From positions 1,240,001-1,304,000 of the forward strand of contig JAHREC010000011.1 in NCBI GenBank assembly GCA_020081605.1: a stretch of DNA of 64,000 nucleotides, written 5' to 3'. Below, in pieces: positions 6,078-50,200 of this stretch. The notes beneath the pieces were generated by a model. It was not told the DNA's origin. It ran no database searches and saw only the letters and a list, made by a program, of their open reading frames with translations. Each line of letters starts with the position of its first letter. Positions within the stretch are counted from its first letter, which is position 1. The stretch comes from Albifimbria verrucaria. Taxonomy: Eukaryota; Ascomycota; Sordariomycetes; Hypocreales; Stachybotryaceae. Made by a program: the position numbers and the translations under genes.

Positions 6078-7462
6078 ATGTCTACGCCACGAGCATCGCT
6101 GCACCGGCCCGGCGCGGCATCTCCTCCCGGCGACAAGCTGCGGACTCTGTTCGCATTCAGCATCTTCGGTATGCGCATGCCCCTAGCCGTTGTCGATTTA
6201 AATCTCCGAGCCTGATGTTGGCCATGTTTTTGCCTCCACCACTGCGCATGAGATTGGTCGATACTCCGGAATCTACGTCCGATTGCTGACAACTTCACCA
6301 GGCTTTGTCACCGTAACCGTCGCGCCCATTGTCTACGCCGCTTGCTACCTTATCGTCCCCTATCCGAGACCAGTTGTCGTCTTGATCGAGACGTTGCCCG
6401 CCATTGCCGTCAAGTTCCTGATTCCACACCTCGTCCCCTATGTCAAGTACTCGCTTCGCCCGATAATAGTGGCCGCCGGCTTGCTGCTGGCCTCGGCCTT
6501 GATCGACCTCATCACGCCCAACGTCCATCCACCCGTCCGCATCCTGCTTACATTGCTGGCCGCTGCTGCCACTGCTGCCTCGGAGGTTACGCACCTTGGC
6601 CTGCTGCGATACTATGGAAAGACCGGTTTGGCGGGCTGGGGTCTCGGCACTGGTGCCGGTGCTATTGCCGTCGCCGTCATGCCGTACATTGTCACCTACA
6701 GGATGGGACTGTTTCTGCGAAGCGCCGTCCACTACACCTACTACCTGATCCCGATGATGTTGATCGGGTACTACGTCGTTCTTCCCCGCTCCCATATTCC
6801 TCGATCCGGTCACAACAACGAGCGTAATGTACAGGACATGGATCTTGGAGATGATGATGTCGAGCTCCTGGCCCACGGTATTACCGCGACTCCACGACAT
6901 TCCGTCAAAGCATCCAGGACAATCTCAAGCTCTTTCGCTTGCTTACGATGCCCTACATGTTTCCCCTGTTCGCCAGCGCCGTGTTCCAAGGTATCATCTT
7001 TCCCGGTGTTACCCGAGCGTATCCCTCATCCTCTTCGTTCGAGGCCTATTCAGCTTACTTTGCTGCGTACGGCTTCGCTTTCCAGCTGGGAAACATGCTT
7101 GGACGAGTATCCGCGGTTTTCATGCGCTCGCAAAAGGCAAGAGTCCGATGACCCGCCTTTGCGTCGTTTCTGTCTTGGCTGTCATTAACGCATGCTTCCT
7201 CTTCTTCACTTGGCCTATTGTGGTCTTTGTGCTTGTTCTTGTGGTTGGCTTCATGTGCGGCACAGTGTACAGCAACACCTTCACAGCGGTTCTGGAGGAC
7301 TCAGGACCTGCAGCTGGCAACCGGGAATTCAGTCTCGGTGTCATTGGAATTGGCGAAACGGAAGGCGTTCTCATTGCAGCCTTCATTGGCGCTGCTTTGG
7401 AGTCGTCAATATGCTCCTTCAGCTTCGGTAGTGGGCAGCGATGGTGTCATAATGTACGGTGA
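6078..7462 (+). CDS. CLN3/battenin-like multi-pass membrane protein
   Basis: The ATG at 6078 starts a 91-nt exon. An intron (6169-6301, GTATGC...CACCAG) joins it in phase to a long hydrophobic frame. The features fit the battenin (CLN3/Btn1) family of vacuolar/lysosomal membrane proteins: a segment 'LPAIAVKFLIPHLVPYVKYS' like the family's 'ADILPaLliKlIaPff..yS' region, 'SEVTHLGLLRYYGKTGLAGW' followed by a Gly-rich 'GLGTGAGAI', 'GIIFPGVTRAYP...YGFAFQLGN' and the late 'REFSLGVIGIGETEGVLIAA', corresponding to the family's 'REFSmgavsigds.Gi..a'. The frame shifts near 6870 (GG run) and near 7130 (AAAA run), both as single missing bases. In yeast and man the family affects vacuolar/lysosomal pH and basic amino acid handling. 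The C-terminal end (about 7410-7462) is uncertain. Confidence 0.75.
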
Positions 7463-12565: not shown

Positions 12566-13855
12566 CTGTGAGATTGCCGTGCGGTTGGGCGCAATAGAGG
12601 TATATGCTATTTTGAAATGGCAATACGTTATTACCTTTCAAGTGGATGAATTTACCTAGTTGAACAGGCTTGCCGGAGCTTGGTAAAGGCATCTGATTAG
12701 ACCTATGCCTTCGTCGGATAGATAAGCAGGCCGATGAACTTATGCAAGCAAGCTATGAATCCTTAGCAAGTTATCGAAATAGTATCTATGCTTATGGAGC
12801 ATCTCTTGTCCAACTTTAGAGGAGACTGAGACCCTTTAGCGTTGCCTTTGCAACATTTTCAGAAACTGCCTAGTTTGACCAGAAATAAACTCCGTGTCAA
12901 ATGCAAAGTTTTGCCCGATCATGATGGCCTCGGAGTTGGTGGTAAATGCTGATTGTCGACGTGGCTACAAAGTATGATTGATGGCTGTTGGAAAGGCTAT
13001 GTAGAATAGTGTCAACCCGCCTTACTCAGCACTAACACGGAGGCATAAATTACTGGCTAAGAAACTGCTAGATGGGGCCGTGCAAAGCAGGGAATGGAGG
13101 TTGAACTGACCAAGGAATTGCAGTCAAGTCTAGCAATGTCTTACTTATTTTGGCTAAAGCGCTTAGGGCTGCCCATGAGACCGCTACTGAAGAGCTTATC
13201 CGATGGCTGACTTGAGACATAAGAAAGAGGATGTTGGCCCAGTACAGGTCCCGCTACAAGTACAACAAGCTGACATGAGGGTATAATGAATCGAACAACA
13301 TTCGAAACAGAATTCAGCATCCGTATTTCTGTTGAAAGATGATCCTAAGCTCCTATATACCGGGCCTATGCCTCTAATACTGTTCGTCCCCTACCCATGA
13401 CCTTGTTCGCCCCCACAGTGGACTTCAACCTCAGCAATTCCTCGCAAGAACAAGTAGCATGTCAGATTGTGTTGACACTACTAATGGTGGGCCTTTCGAA
13501 GATTACATATTGCTAGGGTAAGATCCCTGTATGCGTTAGAATCGAGACTCAGCTTGCAAAATTTTCGGGGTAAAACTACCCAATATGAATTAATGCAATA
13601 GTAGTCAAATGTATCGACCTCACAAAATCCCCTGACATGGAATCTGAACTACAGAGTTTGGTAGCTTCACCTAACCTCACTGCTACTATTGCTTCCGGCG
13701 TTGAATGAAACATTACCTGCACGAAGCTCAGCTACCAGCGACATTCTCGCAACGGCACATATCGGTATTCTTATTGAGTTTCTCATCAGCGACTGGAAAG
13801 ATTTGCTTAAGTTTTTCCCACATTGCAAGAATCTCTAAAACGGGAACTCAATGCC
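12566..13855. other. Intergenic, 1.3 kb
   Basis: No supported gene. The last few hundred bases are the promoter of the TLC-Lgt-like gene, with a T-rich tract (GTTTTTCCC) about 45 bp before the ATG. Confidence 0.4.
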
Positions 13856-15719
13856 ATGTTTCCCATTAAAGATCTTCAATATGTCGTTGCAGGCTTCATA
13901 GGCTATCAGACGTTGATAGCTCTTGCTCGAGGCATAACATTCCTGAGCAATCGCACCTTCTACGATCAACTCAAAAATGATACGAAGTGGAAGTTCAGAG
14001 CTTACTTCGTCTTCCCAGTTGGGTTTATGATCACTCTTGCGACAGTGCCTATTTGTATCGAGGCGTACGCGTCCACTTCCGCCGAATCAGACACAACAGT
14101 TACAATGCCTGCGATGTCGTTGGCAGGGAAGATTTGTGTCGGCTCGCGAGGCGTGCTATGGATATCTGAGTTACCATTACTCAGCTATTCCTCGGCTTAC
14201 ATCAACCATCATATTCTTTCGTTAAGTTCCTTGGCCTTAATCCTCCTTAACGATCTGCCTCGCCGGCCACTATATCTCATCTATGCTGGTCTTGTGACGG
14301 AACTCTTCTCGGATACGGTTGCAGTCTTGAAGTTTCACGGCTTCAATTCTGGTAACTCCTGCATTTATGCGGGAGTAGCTATTGCGAGCGCTTTGAGTCT
14401 TGTTATTTTACGTGCAGTGCCTGCGCTCGCAATTACCACATCTGCGTTAATGCCTCCCTCAACAAGGGCAGAACAAGCTTATGTCGCTGCGGTGATATTC
14501 TATTGTGGTTGGCTTCTACGACTGTCATACATGCAACTGAAACAAATAGGCCTTGTGAGAATCGTGTTAAACAGACCAGCACATTTCGTCATAGGCGATC
14601 AATCACGCATTTCCATCTTCAGAATCCTACTGGGACTGTCCATGACGATGACACAAGCAGTTTCTGCCAGTTTCTACTATTCAAATAATACTGAGGCCGT
14701 TTCTGCGCCTGAAATCCATCTTCTTTCTATTACTGGTCTTGGGACAGTATTTGCTGGACTTTTCGGAGCCAAGATCATAAACAGTCTAATGACTCTTCCA
14801 TGGAAGCAGTCTGTGCTGGCATCCCAACAAAAAAAGGTGAAGCGGGTGGTAATTCTGAGCATCTTGTTGTAAGCAAGGCATTACCGTCCTGGATGCTCTC
14901 CATCACCGAACGCTATCTTGACCCGCTTATCGGCCAGGATTATTCTCTGAACGGCATATCAATCCAAGGCGGAGTGCTTTTTGCCGCTTCGTGGCTTGCA
15001 TTTGGGCCCACTGCAGCCTCTCCCGTCAACAGAAACCTCTTGGTGGCCTCTACTTTATTGAGCCTTCCTCTTGGCGAAGCGCTAGGACGCGTCGGATGCT
15101 TCTTTGGCGGATGCTGCGGTTCTGTACGAGACAAAAATAACGAGCCGCTGTATCCGCCGGTGCAATTTCTCACCTCGTTAATGAATTTGTCATTGTTCCT
15201 AAGCTTGATCAACGCCATGAACGCTGGGATAATTGACCTATATGAAGCAGCTGCCATCGCTTCAGCTGGGAATGCATCTATTCGCCTCGTCGTGGATCCC
15301 TGAGAAATGACACCAATGGACAGCATATGAGCATCACAAGTTTCTTCGCCGGAGGTCAACTTTTGCTCTCAAGTCTATTCATTATCAAGGACAAGGCCGG
15401 GCAGGACGTCATTTCTATATCAATGGCTACTGCCGCGGTCTGTTTGACGTTGTTCTGTTGTGCTCGAGTGACGAGGACTGCATACATTCTCCTAGTGCGA
15501 TTTGTTTGGAGGTCGCAAATGAAATGGCTCATCCGACCTGTGAATCTTGTGTACACTTTCAGTGGCATTATCGTGGCTCTGATCCTTAGCGATACTTATA
15601 ACCGAGACAATGAGGCTGCATTTAGATCAACAGCGAGCAACGACATCTGGCCATTCTTAACAAGCCCGGCTTTCCTATCTTGCGCTGCTCTCACAGTTTC
15701 ACTTCCTCTGTTAGTTTGA
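13856..15719 (+). CDS. TLC-like plus Lgt-like (prolipoprotein diacylglyceryl transferase) membrane fusion protein
   Basis: About 620 aa over one exon with two single-base breaks: the A7 run at 14829-14835 and the CCC near 15298. I choose the ATG at 13856 (MFPIKDLQYVV) because no upstream ATG is in frame nearby. The N-terminal half (to about 14800) has about seven hydrophobic segments and the 'INHHILSLSSLALIL' and 'YAGLVTELFSDTVAVLKF' elements typical of the TLC (TRAM-LAG1-CLN8) fold. The C-terminal half reads like bacterial Lgt: 'GISIQGGVLFA' in place of the GG(M/L)sfHGG segment, 'GEALGRVGCFFGGCCGS' matching the Lgt signature GRxGxFxxGxxxG, 'LYPPVQFLTSLMNL' matching (H/Y)PtQLYE, 'RLVVDPLRND' matching R.iiEflRgD, then 'MSITSFFAGG' matching lslgQwlSl. 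Lgt moves diacylglyceryl from phosphatidylglycerol to lipoprotein Cys in bacteria; the fungal substrate is unknown. The domain split is well supported for Lgt, less for TLC. Confidence 0.75.
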
Positions 15720-32744: not shown

Positions 32745-35631
32745 TTACCGCGGCGCCCGTTCCAAGAGCGCCTTGGTTGCGCAAGCAGCCGTTGCCGAAG
32801 CAAAGGCCTGCCAACTCTTGTTCTTATGGCTATCCGCGTAGTCACACACACCTTTCACAACAATACAAGGGATCTCGTCCCATATACCCGCAGCTTCCAT
32901 CTCGAACGCTAGCAAATTGTGTCGCTTGGCGATCTTGTCGCGGTCTTCGCCTGACTTGACTACAGTGTCGCCGGAACCAACACGGCCAACGAATATCGAT
33001 GGGGCCTGGGCCTCTTCCTTTTGTCCGTTCAATTCTTGGTACCGTTTAGTGTTTAAGCGTTCCCGTGGTACGGTTTGTTCCTCGTCGCAGCCTAGCTCTT
33101 CACAGGATAGTTTACGTGATTCGTCACATACCGGATCCGAGCTCTTGTGGCATTTTACGCAGATACATGTTGGTGCTTCGTGATGTTTGTGTCGGAAATT
33201 CGCCTTGTATAGAATATCATTCTCAGCCCCGGGGTATTGGTAGTTTCTTCGACTCCGACTCTTGAACGGATTGCTCTGCAATTGCTGAAGGAAATGGTTG
33301 GTTCGCTTCTCCAGTTTCTCCCGGCCTAGGTCTGTCTCGAGAACGGTGACCAAATTTCGGATCTTCTTTGGCAATCGACCAAGGCTGTCCTCAATTTCGT
33401 CTCTTCCAGCAAGCCCGTCCGGGTAGAGCCTACCATGGTCATATTGTATCGCGGCTTTACTTATAATCACATCACCAAGGAGAATCTCTTCATCAGTCCC
33501 CGGTCGAGGCACACCACCGCAAATTCCAGTTAAAAGACAAATTTCAGCTTGGGATAGCTTGATCGAAGGCTAGCTGCTGAACTTGCGGCTCCCACTTTTC
33601 CCATGTTGGATAATAGTACAAGGACAACGTTGAACCGACCAATGCGGCCTGTCATGTATGCGTTTGAATCATTATCATTTCTGCCGTCCAGATCGTGGTC
33701 GTTATCCCAGATTCGATCCATCAGAAGTGACACGGCATCATACTCCAGAGGCAGTGCGCAAAGTATAGCAACCTCAAAGCTGTCTCGATCGCGAGGCGGT
33801 GAATTGGCTAGACTGGTCAAGTCACTATCGCCGTTATGCAAAGAAGCAACTCTACTGAGTCGCGCAGCTGGCAGTTGCTGTATCTTCCGACCACCGTCTT
33901 CTCTTTTGAAGCTTTTCTTTATCACAGAGTGTTCCTCTTCGTCTTCATCGTCAGAGCTGCTTCGCTTCCGTTTTAAGCTGTCGGGATTCAGCTCAAGCTC
34001 GAGATTCTTCACTACATTCTCATAGATAACTTTCTTGATATCCAAATTGGAAACCTGAGCAGGTCCTTGACGCCGGAGAGTTTGAAGACGGGTGTGTAGA
34101 TATAGACAGCCTTTGACAGCCTCGAAAAAGAAGCTGCTTCTATCCCTTTCTAGCTGAGAGAGCAAGTCGCACATCTTCGCCCATATTGTAATATTATCTT
34201 CGCGCCGTGGATGTATCTCGAATAGTATTTTCTCGCCGCTGTTGATCTCCATCAGTAATCTGGCAAAGGCTAGGAGAACTGGATCCCCTATTTGGATCGT
34301 TTCAGGTGTGTTTGTTGATCTCAAGCCGGGAGACTTAGGCCGCAGCGAGATGTATAATTGATGCTCGTCCTTGGCAACCTGGGACGTTCGAATTAAGAAT
34401 ATCCTCTCTGGATTCCACGTATGAGAGGCAAGTTCTAGATCTTCATTGAAGAAGTCCACTAGACATCTGGCCAGCGCAAGGGCCAGGGCAACTTTCTCGT
34501 GACTCTGGAACCTTAGCGCTGCTGTTCCATCTAAGTATGCACTGGGGCACATTGGACAAAGTCTTTTGTCGTCTAGTAACGATTTGAGCGTTTCTGTCAT
34601 GTAATCGTAGTTTTTAAGATATGTGGATTGCACTGGCAGGTCTTCGGATACGTCGAAAACTTCTTTTCTTTGACTAGCAGATGAAGCGTCCTACCGTGGA
34701 CCTTTGATTTGTGAACAGCGGCACAAAGAGTGTGCTTCTTTTCCAGCTCTAAACCATGTCTAAAGTCCCAGGTCAGACAATTTCTTCTACATTTGTAACG
34801 TGACTTACTGGAATGAGCGGCAACGAGCTTCTTGCCAGTCATCTGTAGCTTGGCAGCAAGATATGAACATGTCTAGCATAGGTTGGTTAGGACTTGTATG
34901 CAAGTCCTTCGACACTGGAGTTTGATTTCGTGAATGTTGCACTCTTGTCCTTGAAATTCTTTAAAAATTGTATCCACTGTAGAATGTGCATATATGCAAA
35001 GTGTCTCAGGTCGATCATCCAGTGTGTCACTCTTGTGTGCACCTACTGTGGGTCTGGTAAGAGTTTGAGAAGCTTGTCGTGTATCCTTCGATATCCGTTC
35101 AAGAAGATTCTTACAGTCCGCAAGAAGAGCTATTGCCTCGCGCCCTGGCTCGCCATGAGGAAAGGAGAAGAGAAGTATTCCCGAGCCGCTCGTCAAATTG
35201 ATCGGATCAGAAGTTGTGTCCAGAAAATTGATCAATGCGACTAGTTGAGGATATGAATCTCCAAGCATGGTGACATCCCGAGATAGCTGATGAGTACCCT
35301 GGCTGTTGACATTCAGAGACAGTTCACTTTGTTGTCTGGTCGCGTTTTCCGACGGCGCAATACTGTCCTGATTCACAGTATCGTTAAGAAACGATAATAA
35401 ATTCCGCATGCTTCTGTCCAACTCTTGATAATCATTCTCTGAAAGGTCAACAATTTCAGGCGTCATCTCCAAAAGGTGACGTAAATCGGTTTCGAAAAAG
35501 ATACTGTCATTATCCACTTTGCGAGGACGTCCTTCACGTCGCCTTTCCCTGCTGAACCTCGCGAACCTGCCAATCAGGCGGCTCTTGAGAGCCTGGAGGC
35601 CATTCCAGCTTGTGGATTCCGTTGGGAGCAT
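32745..35631 (-). CDS. DUF7580-like plus nucleoside phosphorylase (PNP_UDP) receptor-like protein
   Basis: Starts at ATG 35631 (MLPTESTSWNGLQALK). The N-terminal about 250 aa are helical. The middle part (about 34840-34000) has the pattern of fungal DUF7580: 'SHEKVALALALARCLVDFF' followed by 'WNPERIFLIR'. An acidic/basic linker follows (KRKRSSSDDEDEEE), then a PNP_UDP_1 domain: 'FEVAILCALPLEYDAV', 'VLVLLSNMGKVGAASSAAS', 'LTGICGGVPRPG', 'EILLGDVIIS', and 'LAFEMEAAGIWD' followed by 'VVKGVCDYADSHKNKSW', the strongly conserved ligand-binding end. Breaks occur at 34664-34667 (TTTT) and near 33540. One or two introns lie near 34810-34880. In fungi such domains form N-termini or partners of NLR-type proteins. 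It is head-to-head with the NB-ARC gene. Confidence 0.75.
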
Positions 35632-36011: not shown

Positions 36012-39000
36012 ATGAGCAACGAGGACGATGAAGCAATTCTCGAACTAGCAACGGAATGCGAAAACTTGTTCAAGGAAAGGATTTCCGACTTTGACGACAC
36101 TGATGACTTGGACAGCGCCAAGGTTCTGAAGGAATATTTCCAAAGATTTACGACATGGGCAGCATTCCTAGGGGTTTTCGCGGACCCAAAGGTCTGTCTG
36201 GATCGCAGACTACGACATCATGTCGAGCTCCAGGACCTGGTCGTGCGTCTCTTAGACACCATAGAGAACAACCTGACATACCGTACGTATATCAATATCT
36301 TGACTGAGGGATAAGCGTTTAATGAGCGGCTAGTGTTTGAGACCAGTGATGCATCTGAACATATGGAAATAGACTCGTCTGGCACCAACTCATCTTCAAA
36401 CAAGTTACCACCTACCATCTGTCTCGAGAGCTTAGAGGCGATAGCCGGTGCTATAGAACGCTTGAACCATCTCGGAGTTGCCATTCGGAGATCTTCTGTG
36501 ACAGACCAGGCGACCAAAGCCAGGAAATTCGCTGGAAAACTCGACGCCACCTCATTCGAGCGTGTCGTTGATATAGCACTCAAATCGCTTTATCCAGACG
36601 CGAGTTTAGAACTACTGGAACACCTTACCAGGGCAATGACGGAAACGTACACACTTTTTCGCTATCGACAATCTAGACACGAAAGGCTTCAACCTGAACG
36701 TATACGAACTAAACAATTTCGCTCTTTACCTGTCGTTCAAGAGGACCAACTTGAAAACACTGAGCCAATGGTTATCGATGTACCGACTGCTTCGAGAAAT
36801 GAAGACATTCCACAAACTGTCCCCCAAACCGTTTCTCGTCCTCCACCACCCACTATATCTTCTCAATCTAGGCCTACTTCAGTTAACAGCAAGGAAGTTC
36901 AGAAGAGGCTGCTGCAGAAAAGGACCACTTCGCGAAAGACAAAATCCGTTCTTGTCAATCAAGTGGACTATTCTCGACCCTCTAGGAAAGCTTGATATGC
37001 GAGTGGTGTTTCAACCCACTCCCAGAAGACATTTTACAAGGGGATAAGTGGAAGTATGTGTTCTTTCGTTTGTTTAAGAGAAACTGGCTGACCATTGTAA
37101 CAGCCAGCATATGAACGAAGATCATAAGCCTTATATTTGCCTGTCAGAAAAGTGTTCCGAACCATTGGAGCGATTTGCAACATCTGCTGCATGGCATAAA
37201 CACATGACTTCTACTCATGGTCTAGATTGGCATCAAGAAGTGCATTTGCCTTTATCATGGATCTGTCCGTTGTGCACTGGTGGAAGTGATTGTACTTTTA
37301 CAAACTCCCAAGGACTCTCACAGCATCTCCTGGATGTTCATTCTGATACATTAACACAGTCACAAATTCAAGCCATTGTGCAACAGAGCAGCCTACGGTT
37401 ACCTCGTGTGGATGATGGTTGCCCTTTGTGTTGCTTATCTATAAAGGAAGACAATAGGAATTTTACAATCAAGACAAGCAATGAGACGGAAAACACAGCC
37501 GATCTCGACAACCTGATGATAGACGACGACAAATTGAAGGATCAAGACAAAGCGAGTAAGAACCGCGAAGAAATGGCAAGTCATGTGGCAACACATCTTC
37601 GGGGTATCATCAATCTTACTTTACGCCTGATATCCACCAACTCAGCTGCAGACTCTCCAGAAGAGAACCAAAGTGCATCCGGTCATACTGACCACCTTAC
37701 ATCTCGTCCTGTATCCAATCACGAGAGCTTTGGGCGAGATTCGGACTTTTCAGAGGACGACACGTCAACAATAGGGGACGTGGAACACGAGAACTTTGAG
37801 GAAGATGTTTTGCCGGTTCCCGAGTCCCTGGTTGATTGGATAGATGTCCCCGTGCCGGCGAGGTGCCAGTCCAGGAGGACACGTTCCTACAAAAGCTGAA
37901 AGTCTCGGGATTCTCCCAACCTTCTGCCATTGTTCTGATTCCGTATGAACGGAATCCACGCTTTGTAGTTCGCTCGGCAATCGCCAAAAGACTTGAGGAT
38001 ATCAGCGCCACATCTTCTAACATGGGCGTATTGGTTGGAGTCGGTGGGTCAGGGTGAGTCCATATCTGCATAATTGTTTTGTACTCTTCACTGACGAGAT
38101 TAATGCAGAAAAACAGAAATCGCCATCGACTACGCTTACAAACGGACACTCGATGATAATTGCTCAGTATTCTGGGTCCGATCCGATTGCGAAGAAACCT
38201 TTGTGTCTGATTATCAGGATATCGCTCTGAAATTAGGCGTGGACTTGGATCTTCCACGGAATGAGATGCTCGTTGAAGTGTGCAAAGCCATCCAAAAACA
38301 ACCGCAGTGGGTACTGATCCTCGACAATGCCAACGATGTGGTATTGTTCGGGAAGAAAGAAGTCAACATGAGCACAAACTTGCTGAAATACATTCCTCGA
38401 GCTGTTAGGGGAACCATACTATGGACCACTCGCAACAGAGCCATAGGTAATACTCCTGCAGGCTTTGCCCTTAATATAATCGTCAGTGTCATGAAAGCAA
38501 CCGAAGCCATGGAGCTTCTAGGTGTGGATCATACAACCCAGACAATCGAAGAGAGATTTGTCAAGAACACCTTACTCGCAGAGCTGGAATGGCATACTCT
38601 CGCCGTCTATCAAGCTGCAGCCTATATGCGAACCACATCAACAAGAGCAAGGCAATACCTGGCTATACTGCGCAGTAACAGTATAAGATTAGGCGTAAAT
38701 CAATCAAACACGCCGGATGAACATGGAGAGTCTGATCCCTACAAGGGTGTCTTGAAGACTACTCAAATAGCCATCAATTGGCTTGCTAAACATGACTCCA
38801 GTGCATACAGAATGCTACATGTAGTCGCTTATTTTCACCATAGAAATATTCCTCCTCAAATTTTCGAAGGGTCAAATAACAACGAAGAGTCAAAAGCAAC
38901 ACGCGTCAGCGGGACGACAAGTAAATTGCACGAGATCTTCAACTCAAGTATCTCAAATGCACAATACCGATTATTGGATTTCGGATTTATTACTCAACGT

Positions 39001-39999
39001 CACTCAGCAAACGTTGAGCAGAAGCGCTATGATATGCATGAACTCGTACAGGAAGCTGTACGAAGTGGCTTACGCATAGATATCTATTTTAGATATGATC
39101 CTGGTGATGTTTTCCTCACCACTGCGTTGCAAACTCTAGAAGATATTGCCGGATACACCGCTCCTGAAAGAAGAATGAAAGAGAATTATTCAGCACACGT
39201 AGCAGAAGTCGCAAAATGGTCAAGTGGGATTGGAAGGATGATTGAAACTGCAGAACGCCTTACAAGGTTATCGAACATTTTCTTCTCTGCTGGCCAATGG
39301 GCCCAAGCGGAGCTTTTACTCACCAGCGCCTTGAATATCCAATACAAGTTGCTGGGAAATGACAACCCCAAGACGATTGTAAATATGGCAGATCTTGGGC
39401 TGGCATATTATGGCCAGGGACGCTATGCGGAAGCTCAATCTCTGCAATTCCGAGCTCTGGGAGTCTCGACTAAGCGATTTGGCGTTAAACATCTGAACAC
39501 AATCAGAATTATGATGTCACTTGCCCGAACATATCAAAGTATGGATGCCCAGATGGATCAAGCTGAAATTTTGGCCAGAGGCGCGGTAGACTTCTATAAG
39601 GAGGTGCTGGGGTATACACATCCAGAATCAATTCTGGGCATGAAGCTTCTAGCATCTATATATGACCAGCAAGGTCGCATGGGTGACAATGAGGCCCTCT
39701 ATAGAGACTTCATGAATCACCAAAGAAAACGACTTGGAGCGAAAGATCCTCGCACTATGGAAGTCATGGGGAAGCTTGCTATTGTCTGGTCCAAGATGGG
39801 CCGCGAGACTGATGCAGTTGAACTTATGACAGAGTGTTATGAGCTACGAAAAGATGTTCTTGGGCCTGATCACCCTGAGACTCAGGAGTGTATGGAGTTT
39901 CTAGAGGACTGGCAATCTAAGATTAGTGCATTACTCACGCCTGAAGGCAAAAAGGTAATAGACGAAGGATCCGAAGGTGAGGACGAAGATATACTCTGA
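36012..39999 (+). CDS. NLR-like protein: zinc-finger region, NB-ARC, TPR
   Basis: ATG 36012. Introns 36283-36333, 37054-37103 and 38054-38108 are GT-AG and in phase. The N-terminal about 330 aa are helical and then disordered. Next comes a Cys/His region: 'CEWCFNPLPEDILQGDKW', 'HKPYICLSEKC', 'WHKHMTSTHG', 'WICPLCTGG', 'GCPLCCLS', like atypical C2H2 fingers. The NTPase core has the P-loop 'GVGGSGKTEIAIDYAY' (split by intron 3), Walker B 'WVLILDNAND' and 'RGTILWTTRN', then a winged-helix-like 'YDMHELVQEAVR'. The end carries about four to five TPR-type units ('LLGNDNPKTIVNMADLGLAY', 'VLGYTHPESILGMKLLASIY', 'VLGPDHPETQECMEFL'). The frame breaks once at AAA 36987-36989 and once near 37860. This is a fungal intracellular receptor/STAND architecture, with a likely role in non-self recognition or regulated cell death by analogy. 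Confidence 0.85.
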
Positions 40000-47223: not shown

Positions 47224-50200
47224 ATGAGTGAAACCTCAGGCCTTGTGACGACTATAGAGGATGCACGTGCAGTCATCGAGGAGATAGCGCGGCGCAAAGG
47301 GTCCTTCACAGATTCATTCAAACGAGAAGCAGAAGAGGAAGCAAAAAATGGCCGAAGGGGCATGCTGCAAGCGATCGAAGGCGGCGAGGAGATCCGAGAA
47401 GACTTGGTGAAGGCGCTAAAAATGTGAGTGTTCTGCCGTGATTCTCTGTGACGTGCAACAAATGACTATTCCGTAGCATATCAACCGACCTGTACACGAA
47501 CCGCGCGCGGTTCCTGATGGAAGTGATTCAGAATGCAGACGACAACAAATACACCGCGGGCGACATGCCAAGAGTGTCAATTGCCATCTTTCCCGATCAT
47601 GTGAAGGTTGAATGCAATGAAGAAGGCTTCTCTAAAGAGAATGTTCAGGCGTTGTGTCGAACAGGTCGTAGTTCCAAAACGCCCGGCCAAGGTTACATAG
47701 GTGAAAAGGGCATCGGCTTCAAATCAGTCTTCAAGCTCGCCAACCGGGCACACGTACGCTCCCATCCTTACTACTTTCAACTGGATCAGACCAGAGAGCT
47801 TGGCATGATTACGCCGCAGTGGGACAAAGACTTCTTTGACGATTACGAGGAAGATAGTCAGACGACCATTGTCTTGGATCATATTTGTGACAAGTCCACA
47901 AATTTTTCATCCACTCTCGAAACAGATATCAAGACAATCGACCCTGTCCTCATTCTCTTCTTGCGACGCATAGACCGACTCCATCTCACGCTATTCAATT
48001 CCTCCTCGGATAAGGAGCCGGCTGTTTCAAAACGCTTTCGGCGCATCGACTGGACGCCCGATTCAGGCATCGTGGCACTCGAAGACGAGGATTCTGGCAT
48101 CTCACACCACTTTTACAAGCACCGGTTTGCCATTACTTTTACCGGAACTGAAACCCGACGTCCAGGCATTACAAAAAGTGACATTGTGCTGGCCTTTCCT
48201 GTGCAGCAGGAATCGAGCAAGTATATGGCCTTGATATTGAAGCAGAACTTTGCCTTTGCATATTTGCCTCTGGGGACTTTGGGTTCAAGGTGCGTATCCT
48301 ATGAGGCTCAAATGCTGCTGCTAATGCCATGCACAGTTCATTATCCAGGCAGATTTCCTCACTACGTCAAATCGGCAATCGGTCGATGAAGACAACTCCT
48401 GGAACAAAAATATCGCTGATGCGATCCCTTACGTCTTTGAGGCAGCCATTCAAAGTTTCAATGCAAACGCGGGGAACGCAGACATCACCGAGCTAGCAAA
48501 AGCGTGGCCTCTCTACCTCAATAATAAGACTAGTGGTTTGAGCGCATACTGGCGCGGCATAATAACGAGCATAAATGAGCACCTCAGTGGAGTGTGTGTC
48601 ATCAAGGACCGAACTGGCAGATTCAGAAAACCAAGAAGTCTCATGTTCTTAGACTGGGCGCACGATCGCCATGGTAAGCCGATGTTTGGAAATATGTGCG
48701 ACTATGTCTCTCCTGAATATCCCGCCTCAGTCCGCGAGGCACTTTTATTGCTGAAAGTCACTGCCCCTAACTGGAAGTGGGTATGCGACAAACTGCTGGA
48801 GCTGCACGATGGAGGCCTACTTCATGTTAGGATGCAAAGCAAGGAGTGGTGCTCAGATCTCGCCAAGGTAATCATCGAACAACATGAACGCTGGGACAAC
48901 TGGAAGCATGCAAATGACCTAAAAGAATTCCTCTGATCCCACTGACCGATGGGTCTTGGCGATGTCCCCGTCTGAAGATGATCCAATTTATTTTCCAGCA
49001 AGCTCCGGGGCGACCATTCCGCCTGGGCTGCCACTATCGTTGGTTGACGAAGAAGCTTGCTCTTGCCCCAGGAGGAGAAAGCTCTTTCGACTCCTTGGAG
49101 TAAAGGATTGTAACATCCCTAACATTGTCGAGCAAATCCTTGACTACCACAGCAATTTAAGCACGGCAGTCCCTTTATATCTCGTTGCCCAAGTCAAGTA
49201 CCTCCACAAGATGCGAGGGCACCTTCGCGCCTGGGACATGAACAAGATATACTTTGCGTGTTGTGCTAGCGAGCACCTCCGAAAGGGCATCTCGACATAT
49301 GCCGATATTTCTGTTGATGGTGAGCTTGCTCAGCTTTTCGCCGGTCGTAGCAAGGCGCACTTTCTGGATAGTCATTACTTTGCAGGCCTCGATCCTAGTG
49401 AAAGTGACGAGTTCGCAAAATGGCTGAGTGAGACCGCCGGGGTTGCGCTAGCCCTCGCATCACAACTTCCCCTTTGAGCTGCACGGAGACTTCAAATGGT
49501 TATTGAATAATAAGAGAGATCAGGTCTTGGCTATATTGCATCGAAATTGGAATCTCTACAGTGAGAGCATGACGTTAGAACTCAGACGGATGCTAGCAGG
49601 CTATCGATTCGGGTGCCGCTCGGGTCGTCAAGCTGCCTTGCGGGATACCTACATCTCCTTGCCTATGCTTATGGAAAAAGCAAATGAACTTGGTAATGTC
49701 GACAACTGCGAGTTCTTGGTTTTGCCTACCGATAACCCGAAGGATTGGGAATTTTTGTCCTGCTTGGATGTCGGAGTGAAAGAGGGGCTCGACTTTTATT
49801 TGTGGGTACTCAACCAGGTCGGCTTCAAGGAGCATGGAGACATAGAGAAGTCAAAACAGCTTTACTTAGCAATTCAGTCACGAGCATTCTCGCCTACAGA
49901 GAAGCTAAAGGTAAAGTAAGTGTAAAGAACCACTTCAAACAACCTAGAGCTGACCGATGATGCTGACTGTTGTCAATAGGGCGGCGTTTGTTAATGCTCT
50001 TGTCAAACTTCCAAACCACAAATTTGCACTTCTGAAAGCTGTGTCTGGCATGGACCGAAAGGTTTCTCGTCCAAGCCTGCCTTGCTGCCAGTGTACGGTT
50101 ATGAACTGAATCACTTATTTCGAACAATCTTGGAAGTCCCAAACGCGACGGCCAAAGAAGCAGGAATCCATCTTCTACAGCTCAGGGAGAATAATTCGAC

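Follow-up and report, generated by a model that had tools for sequence, protein, structure and literature searches.

A predicted fusion of a TLC-type membrane domain with a complete Lgt-type domain in filamentous ascomycetes

The fusion gene and its relatives

The DNA analyzed here (the window, 64,000 nucleotides) is the stretch 1240001–1304000 of contig C8 in the 48.4 Mb, 41-contig genome assembly of Albifimbria verrucaria. It contains a plus-strand gene whose 621-residue product is predicted to join, in one chain, a TLC-type fold (residues 1–231; ceramide synthase/CLN8-type) to a complete fold of the type of the prolipoprotein diacylglyceryl transferase Lgt (residues 238–515). Computation supports both assignments, and the fused architecture itself is almost certain. 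The protein is spread over three overlapping open frames (13811–14872, 14713–15303 and 15246–15719), connected by two frame changes in the same (−1) direction, and its features are collected in Table 1. An earlier note on this DNA had named five Lgt segments, all of which were located in the order and at the places claimed: GG..F (as IQGGVLF), GRVGCFFGGCC (15085–15117), YPPVQF, RLVVDP/LRND (15283–15311, spanning the second frame change) and SITSF. The middle frame piece gives a significant match to the Pfam LGT hidden Markov model (PF01790; 27.9 bits against a curated gathering cut-off of 24.9, E = 1.8e-6), the first and third pieces have no Pfam match at E 1, and the gene provides the sole LGT match at E 0.001 in the genome (27.2 bits). 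The predicted model of the nearest relative, P0001, resembles Lgt over the full Lgt length. The same note had placed these segments in the C-terminal half; the domain is present, but its extent differs, running from near residue 238 (~14567) to ~515 (~15398) and being followed by ~100 residues of extra helices.

P0001 is a predicted protein of exactly the same length that is 91% identical to the window protein from end to end. A whole-protein search returned 24 relatives, including seven named Trichoderma (P0002–P0005, P0007, P0008 and P0010) and Aphanocladium album (P0021). A profile search returned 26, nine of them new: three fused proteins (one from Akanthomyces lecanii) and six without the Lgt half. 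Both searches scored the ~8000 candidates with the most shared exact words, inside a length window, and settle the distribution for named ascomycetes only. LGT is matched by 24/24 of the first set and by all three new fused proteins, and both the HH segment and the GRxGC motif occur in 27/27. Some gene models are cut (at least P0016, P0022 and P0035 lack the first part of the TLC half, and P0002 is truncated at its end). That the Lgt domain itself is whole is shown by P0024 (6–237), P0033 (6–237), P0034 (10–233) and P0035 (4–238), which cover nearly all of the 240 positions of the LGT profile. The fusion that the earlier note proposed to seek across taxa is found in 27 predicted single chains; these led us to reject a reading as two separate genes, although proteins with one half alone occur, six with TLC only and one predicted with LGT only (147 residues, Bimuria novae-zelandiae).

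Introns at the two frame changes are not needed, as P0001 is equally long and gap-free (judged by eye). The 57 differences between the window protein and P0001 spare all 78 columns with ≥90% conservation (mean expected by chance 7.1, P = 0.00035) as well as all 147 columns with ≥70% (chance mean 13.5; 0/20,000 draws), although these differences are split between two lineages and so do not test the window copy alone. On the same contig, a ceramide synthase gene (L004, near G000:C8:2009489–2010079), of a kind that is essential or nearly so, is spread over three frames within ~150 bases; its pieces align by eye with yeast LAC1, and a single frame matches a PDB entry with E 3e-77. Three slips so close together in a conserved gene suggest an error of assembly. 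The slips in the fusion gene are probably of the same kind, so that the organism, judged from its sequence, probably has a working copy. A broken ceramide synthase copy is nevertheless conceivable, given the further TLC-family loci on contig C10, and this weakens the assembly-error argument. A pseudogene was rejected as the likeliest reading on two grounds, the conserved columns free of differences from P0001 and the three slips in L004. The L004 slips also make base-level errors likely in this assembly, so other gene models in it probably need care.

Table 1 Features of the TLC–Lgt gene in window coordinates
Feature	Position	Strand	Basis or remark
TLC–Lgt fusion, entire coding region, 621 residues in three frames	13856..15719	+	stop TGA 15717–15719; start, length and end match P0001
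TLC (ceramide synthase/CLN8-type) domain, residues 1–231	13856..14548	+	predicted fold
E105, invariant in 24 aligned relatives	14168..14170	+	alignment
H118 H119, invariant pair; first His is the CerS6 acyl-carrying His by analogy	14207..14212	+	alignment; mechanism PMC11919693
E149, invariant	14300..14302	+	alignment
R186, invariant; spacing resembles the active-site Arg of CerS6 and CLN8	14411..14413	+	alignment; spacing alone
Lgt-like domain, residues 238–515	14567..15398	+	predicted fold
Low-confidence linker within the Lgt-like domain, residues 317–365	14804..14949	+	predicted local distance difference test (pLDDT) <50 in P0001
First frame change, approximate place	14836..14836	+	frame reading
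Q371 at the E. coli Lgt H103 place (IQGG for FHGG)	14965..14967	+	alignment
Lgt signature motif GRVGCFFGGCCG	15085..15120	+	R412 = R143; C415, C420 at N146, E151; C421 next
R477 (= R239) to R484 (= R246)	15283..15305	+	alignment
Second frame change, approximate place	15299..15300	+	frame reading
C-terminal extra helices, residues 519–621	15408..15716	+	part (RP..L) retained in 4 aligned Lgt-less relatives

Conserved residues of the two halves

The numbering and roles of E. coli Lgt residues (structure 5azb) follow PMC4728403 and PMC13251419. In the alignment of 24 proteins (the other 23 being 27–47% identical to the first), 30 columns are invariant, among them Q371, E408, R412, C415, C420, C421, N444, N473, R477, R484 and Q502 in the Lgt half. 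R412, R477 and R484 correspond to the canonical R143, R239 and R246, whereas Q371, C415, C420 and N473 stand in place of H103, N146, E151 and Y235. The arginine pair that binds the phosphatidylglycerol (PG) head group in the E. coli enzyme, R143 and R239 (PMC4728403), is kept as R412 and R477 in the window and in all 24 relatives. Other places vary: Y26 (residue 255) is Y in 14 relatives and F in 10; E243 is N in 12, D in 10 and E in 2; G154 is S in 15 and G in 1; and E202 is A, S, T or another residue. The fungal protein further differs from Lgt in its fusion to a TLC domain and in a short loop after the signature, the interval from the CC pair to the Q199 place measuring 10–19 residues (median 15) in the 24 relatives, 24 in one canonical Lgt and 17–33 (median 29) in 70 bacterial Lgts that share the cysteines. 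The NCBIfam cut-off for Lgt is not reached: the window piece scores 13.5 bits against 118.9 for the equivalog model TIGR00544, and P0001 has no match at E 0.1.

In the TLC half, the invariant residues are L101, W102, E105, H118, H119, Y143, E149, S152 and R186, with an HHxxS motif at residues 118–122. Compared with ceramide synthases, TLCD1 and CLN8, the acidic residues are other in kind and spacing. A profile comparison of this half with the genome's own ceramide synthase gave a weak match at HH (14 columns, E 0.039). The six Lgt-less relatives (P0036–P0041; 288–316 residues, five named Colletotrichum) are 41–49% identical to P0001 across 36–45% of its length; two approach the TLC family model PF03798 (P0037 at 20.4 bits and P0041 at 15.8, both below the cut-off of 24.6), and the other four have no match. 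A fold prediction of the Lgt-less relatives reached a pLDDT of 45.8 and was not used. The genome also holds a TLC-type paralogue (L003, 1253–1842 on the minus strand, G000:C8 near 3601257) at 29% identity, with similarity also to the first portion of the Lgt region in P0019; a later segment of L003 faintly resembles, by eye, a lost Lgt motif.

The four aligned Lgt-less proteins have no Lgt domain and keep both the TLC part and a tail segment whose counterpart in the fused proteins lies after Lgt, so the Lgt domain behaves as a cassette. The tree that includes the Lgt-less relatives is unrooted, and gain and loss of Lgt in Colletotrichum are indistinguishable in it.

Bacterial C/C-type Lgts and the origin of the fungal domain

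Lgts with cysteines at both the N146 and E151 places (C/C-type, GRxGCFxxGCCYG) were sought in bacterial genomes with a pattern requiring the cysteines and G154. At least 586 stretches matched and 571 were confirmed; the best 80 were kept, and 70 proteins were extracted from these loci. Like the fungal protein, they carry the R, C, C, C and R, R set, with R143, R239, R246 and E243 kept in 70/70; unlike it, they are single-domain and keep Y26 and Y235 (67/70 each) alongside E243 and G154 (70/70, the latter fixed by the pattern as the cysteines are). The H103 place holds Y in 47, F in 7, H in 5, Q in 3, L in 3, V in 2, M in 1 and A in 1, with one unlisted; the three glutamines belong to L010, L024 and L077. 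LspA homologues neighbor 37 of the best 80 loci, homologues of the isoleucyl-tRNA synthetase IleRS 40, either of the two 46, radical S-adenosylmethionine (SAM) genes 5 and none of these 29 (the LspA and IleRS families were verified on one example each).

A PF01790 search covered 19 genomes from 20 given loci (L019 left out). In 10/19 there was a single match, and it was of the C/C type in 10/10, with LspA in five of these loci and IleRS only in one; the ten were picked for a C/C locus and are mostly metagenome assemblies, which could lack a further Lgt gene present in the organism. G001 and G017, two of these genomes, carry FQGG, with LspA in their loci. Since the Q/C/C set thus occurs in sole-copy bacterial Lgts beside LspA, the sequences indicate that the glutamine and cysteines are compatible with catalysis; the fungal loss of Y235 lacks such a parallel (Y in 67/70). 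The ten genomes also suggest that a C/C-type Lgt can be a genome's only Lgt, a point relevant to which features of this antibiotic target are essential.

At five of the bacterial loci (L009, L011, L013, L014 and L015; four Planctomycetes and one Actinobacteria assembly), the C/C-type Lgt-like gene follows a radical SAM gene whose product is related to TrsS and to the tetraether synthase Tes, all below the cut-offs for those families. At L009 one gene lies between the two, and at L011 the radical SAM gene is a C-terminal fragment. In these pairs the Lgt fold may serve to modify lipids outside lipoprotein synthesis.

A tree was built by a quick method from 78 rows (70 different). It included 12 of 28 fungal rows (the 27 fused proteins and P0025; 16 left out) and 34 of 70 bacterial C/C-type proteins (36 left out), and omitted 3 of 28 PF01790 matches (L112, L113 and L116, which had no clear frame). 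All 12 fungal rows form one clade (Shimodaira–Hasegawa-like approximate likelihood ratio test 100, stem 2.69), which makes a single origin of the fungal Lgt domains likely. Several fungal rows were flagged for long branches and odd letter composition, so no donor is named.

A proposed two-domain enzyme and its alternatives

PG is the source of the diacylglyceryl group that Lgt transfers; this lipid is minor in fungi, which are not known to have bacterial-type lipobox lipoproteins or LspA. The explanation that we favor, somewhat better than even in our estimate, is that the TLC–Lgt protein of filamentous ascomycetes acts as an integral membrane enzyme with two domains. Computation supports the placement of invariant polar residues of both halves at or near active-site places of known enzymes, in the TLC half as judged by spacing, and we consider it likely that both halves are catalytic. 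TLC proteins transfer acyl groups by a ping-pong mechanism through an acyl-histidine (PMC11919693); TLCD1 acylates lysophosphatidylethanolamine, and CLN8 acylates lysophosphatidylglycerol, mainly to bis(monoacylglycero)phosphate (BMP) (PMC11838012). By analogy, the TLC half would pass an acyl group from acyl-CoA to H118 and then to an amine or lysolipid acceptor. Between R412 and R477, the Lgt half would hold the phosphate of a PG-like lipid, whose diacylglyceryl (glyceryl) part it would transfer to a nucleophile. In the most economical coupling, the TLC half would make or remodel the PG-type donor, as CLN8 acylates lysophosphatidylglycerol, for use by the Lgt half; the case for such a donor is evenly balanced. 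The acceptor would probably be a small molecule or lipid rather than a lipobox protein, because of the short loop after the signature and the replaced residues at H103, E202 and Y235, though we put a non-peptide acceptor at about an even chance. The earlier note had proposed an undescribed lipid or acylglyceryl transfer, a tentative idea that is strengthened by the acyl-CoA acyltransferase activity of TLC proteins, one of which acts on lysophosphatidylglycerol (PMC11838012), and by the binding of PG to Lgt at two arginines that are kept here (PMC4728403). A more speculative and rather unlikely product would be an N-acyl-S-diacylglyceryl (triacyl-cysteine-like) or otherwise diacylglyceryl-capped lipid, for which one chain would use PG and acyl-CoA together with a small thiol or amine; if true, bacterial lipoprotein chemistry would have been repurposed for a novel class of fungal membrane lipid.

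Several results weigh against this two-domain enzyme. The N-terminal region deserves the name TLC-like that the earlier note gave it, in view of its predicted fold, its HHxxS motif and Lgt-less relatives near PF03798, but that family model matches neither the window nor any of the 24 aligned relatives, and H118 H119, E105, E149, S152 and R186 were paired with residues of CerS6, CLN8 and TLCD1 by spacing alone. Foldseek returned no match at E 0.001 or better (its first rank was a designed repeat protein), and a profile search of solved structures gave nothing at E 1. The preference of CLN8 for BMP over PG speaks somewhat against the PG-donor coupling. The E. coli essential set (Y26, H103, R143, N146, G154 and R239) is incomplete, with only R143 and R239 kept throughout, H103 being Q and N146 being C; the E202, G154 and E243 places vary, and the Y235 place is N in 24/24. 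In E. coli, H103Q and E151A/Q gave no complementation (PMC4728403), and N146A and H103A failed (PMC13251419). In the latter paper, E151A grew like wild type and H103Q outperformed H103A, for which its authors suggest greater stability or substitution of the histidine by glutamine. Y26F was inactive (PMC4728403) and Y235 is essential (PMC13251419, citing PMC4728403), and both results speak against a plain Lgt reaction in the fungal protein. Finally, the Lgt half can be absent: it is missing from the six Lgt-less relatives, and the L003 pieces have no LGT match.

The Lgt-less relatives and L003 also favor an alternative in which the Lgt-like half is dead or purely structural (lipid-binding or dimerizing) and only the TLC half is enzymatic, as does the inactivation of E. 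coli Lgt by changes at H103, N146, Y235 and, in one of the two papers, E151 (PMC4728403, PMC13251419), all four being changed here. However, R412, C415, C420, C421, R477, R484, Q371, E408, N444 and N473 are invariant across 24 proteins of which the most distant is 27% identical to the first, which is unexpected for a dead site. The Q/C/C set moreover recurs in two bacterial proteins, each the sole PF01790 match found in its assembly, though these keep Y235. We regard a dead Lgt half as a serious but unlikely alternative. Less probable still is that the Lgt half lipidates a cysteine of secreted or membrane fungal proteins, with N-acylation by the TLC half, combining Lgt and Lnt in one protein. 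By analogy both chemistries would fit (TLC acyl transfer and Lgt S-diacylglyceryl transfer), and the bacterial C/C-type Lgts beside LspA resemble, in sequence, working lipoprotein enzymes. The loop from the CC pair to the Q199 place has, however, a shorter median length than in those enzymes, H103 and Y235 are replaced, the head domain is tied to protein handling (PMC13251419), and peptide binding has been proposed at HGGL (PMC4728403). That the gene is broken or artefactual (two genes, a pseudogene or bacterial contamination) is very improbable, as the two frame slips are set against 27 single-chain relatives with P0001 of identical length, the 78 conserved columns free of differences, the three slips in the ceramide synthase gene that point to assembly errors, and the presence of that gene on the same 5.35 Mb contig.

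In the fusion protein, a domain treated as bacterial in the papers cited here is conserved within a fungal family, phosphate-binding arginines included, and shares its chain with a fold that has only lately turned out to comprise lysophospholipid acyltransferases (PMC11838012). Lgt is described as present in bacteria and absent from archaea (PMC13251419), and the terms "eukaryot", "fungi" and "yeast" are absent from the main text of that paper. Databases already flag the LGT domain, for example in Trichoderma breve; in the open-access literature (subscription papers and preprints being outside scope) no account of a fungal Lgt or a TLC–Lgt fusion was found among the matches listed, and PMC12419801 and PMC13188914 yielded no mention of the fusion. 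The architecture suggests that ascomycetes carrying it make a lipid or lipid-linked molecule of an undescribed kind.

Ten frames in the window were examined (including CLN3, a hydrolase and a sugar transporter) and showed no clear gene cluster. A homologue of the Batten disease protein CLN3 (PF02487) lies at 6202–7188, ~7 kb upstream of the TLC–Lgt gene; CLN8 is a TLC protein, yet this proximity may be chance. The window also contains a DUF7580 gene (33533–34690), a gene rich in tetratricopeptide repeats (38104–39996, with DUF7779 below cut-off) and a sacsin-domain gene (47466–48386), which we take to be of kinds common among fungal recognition proteins.
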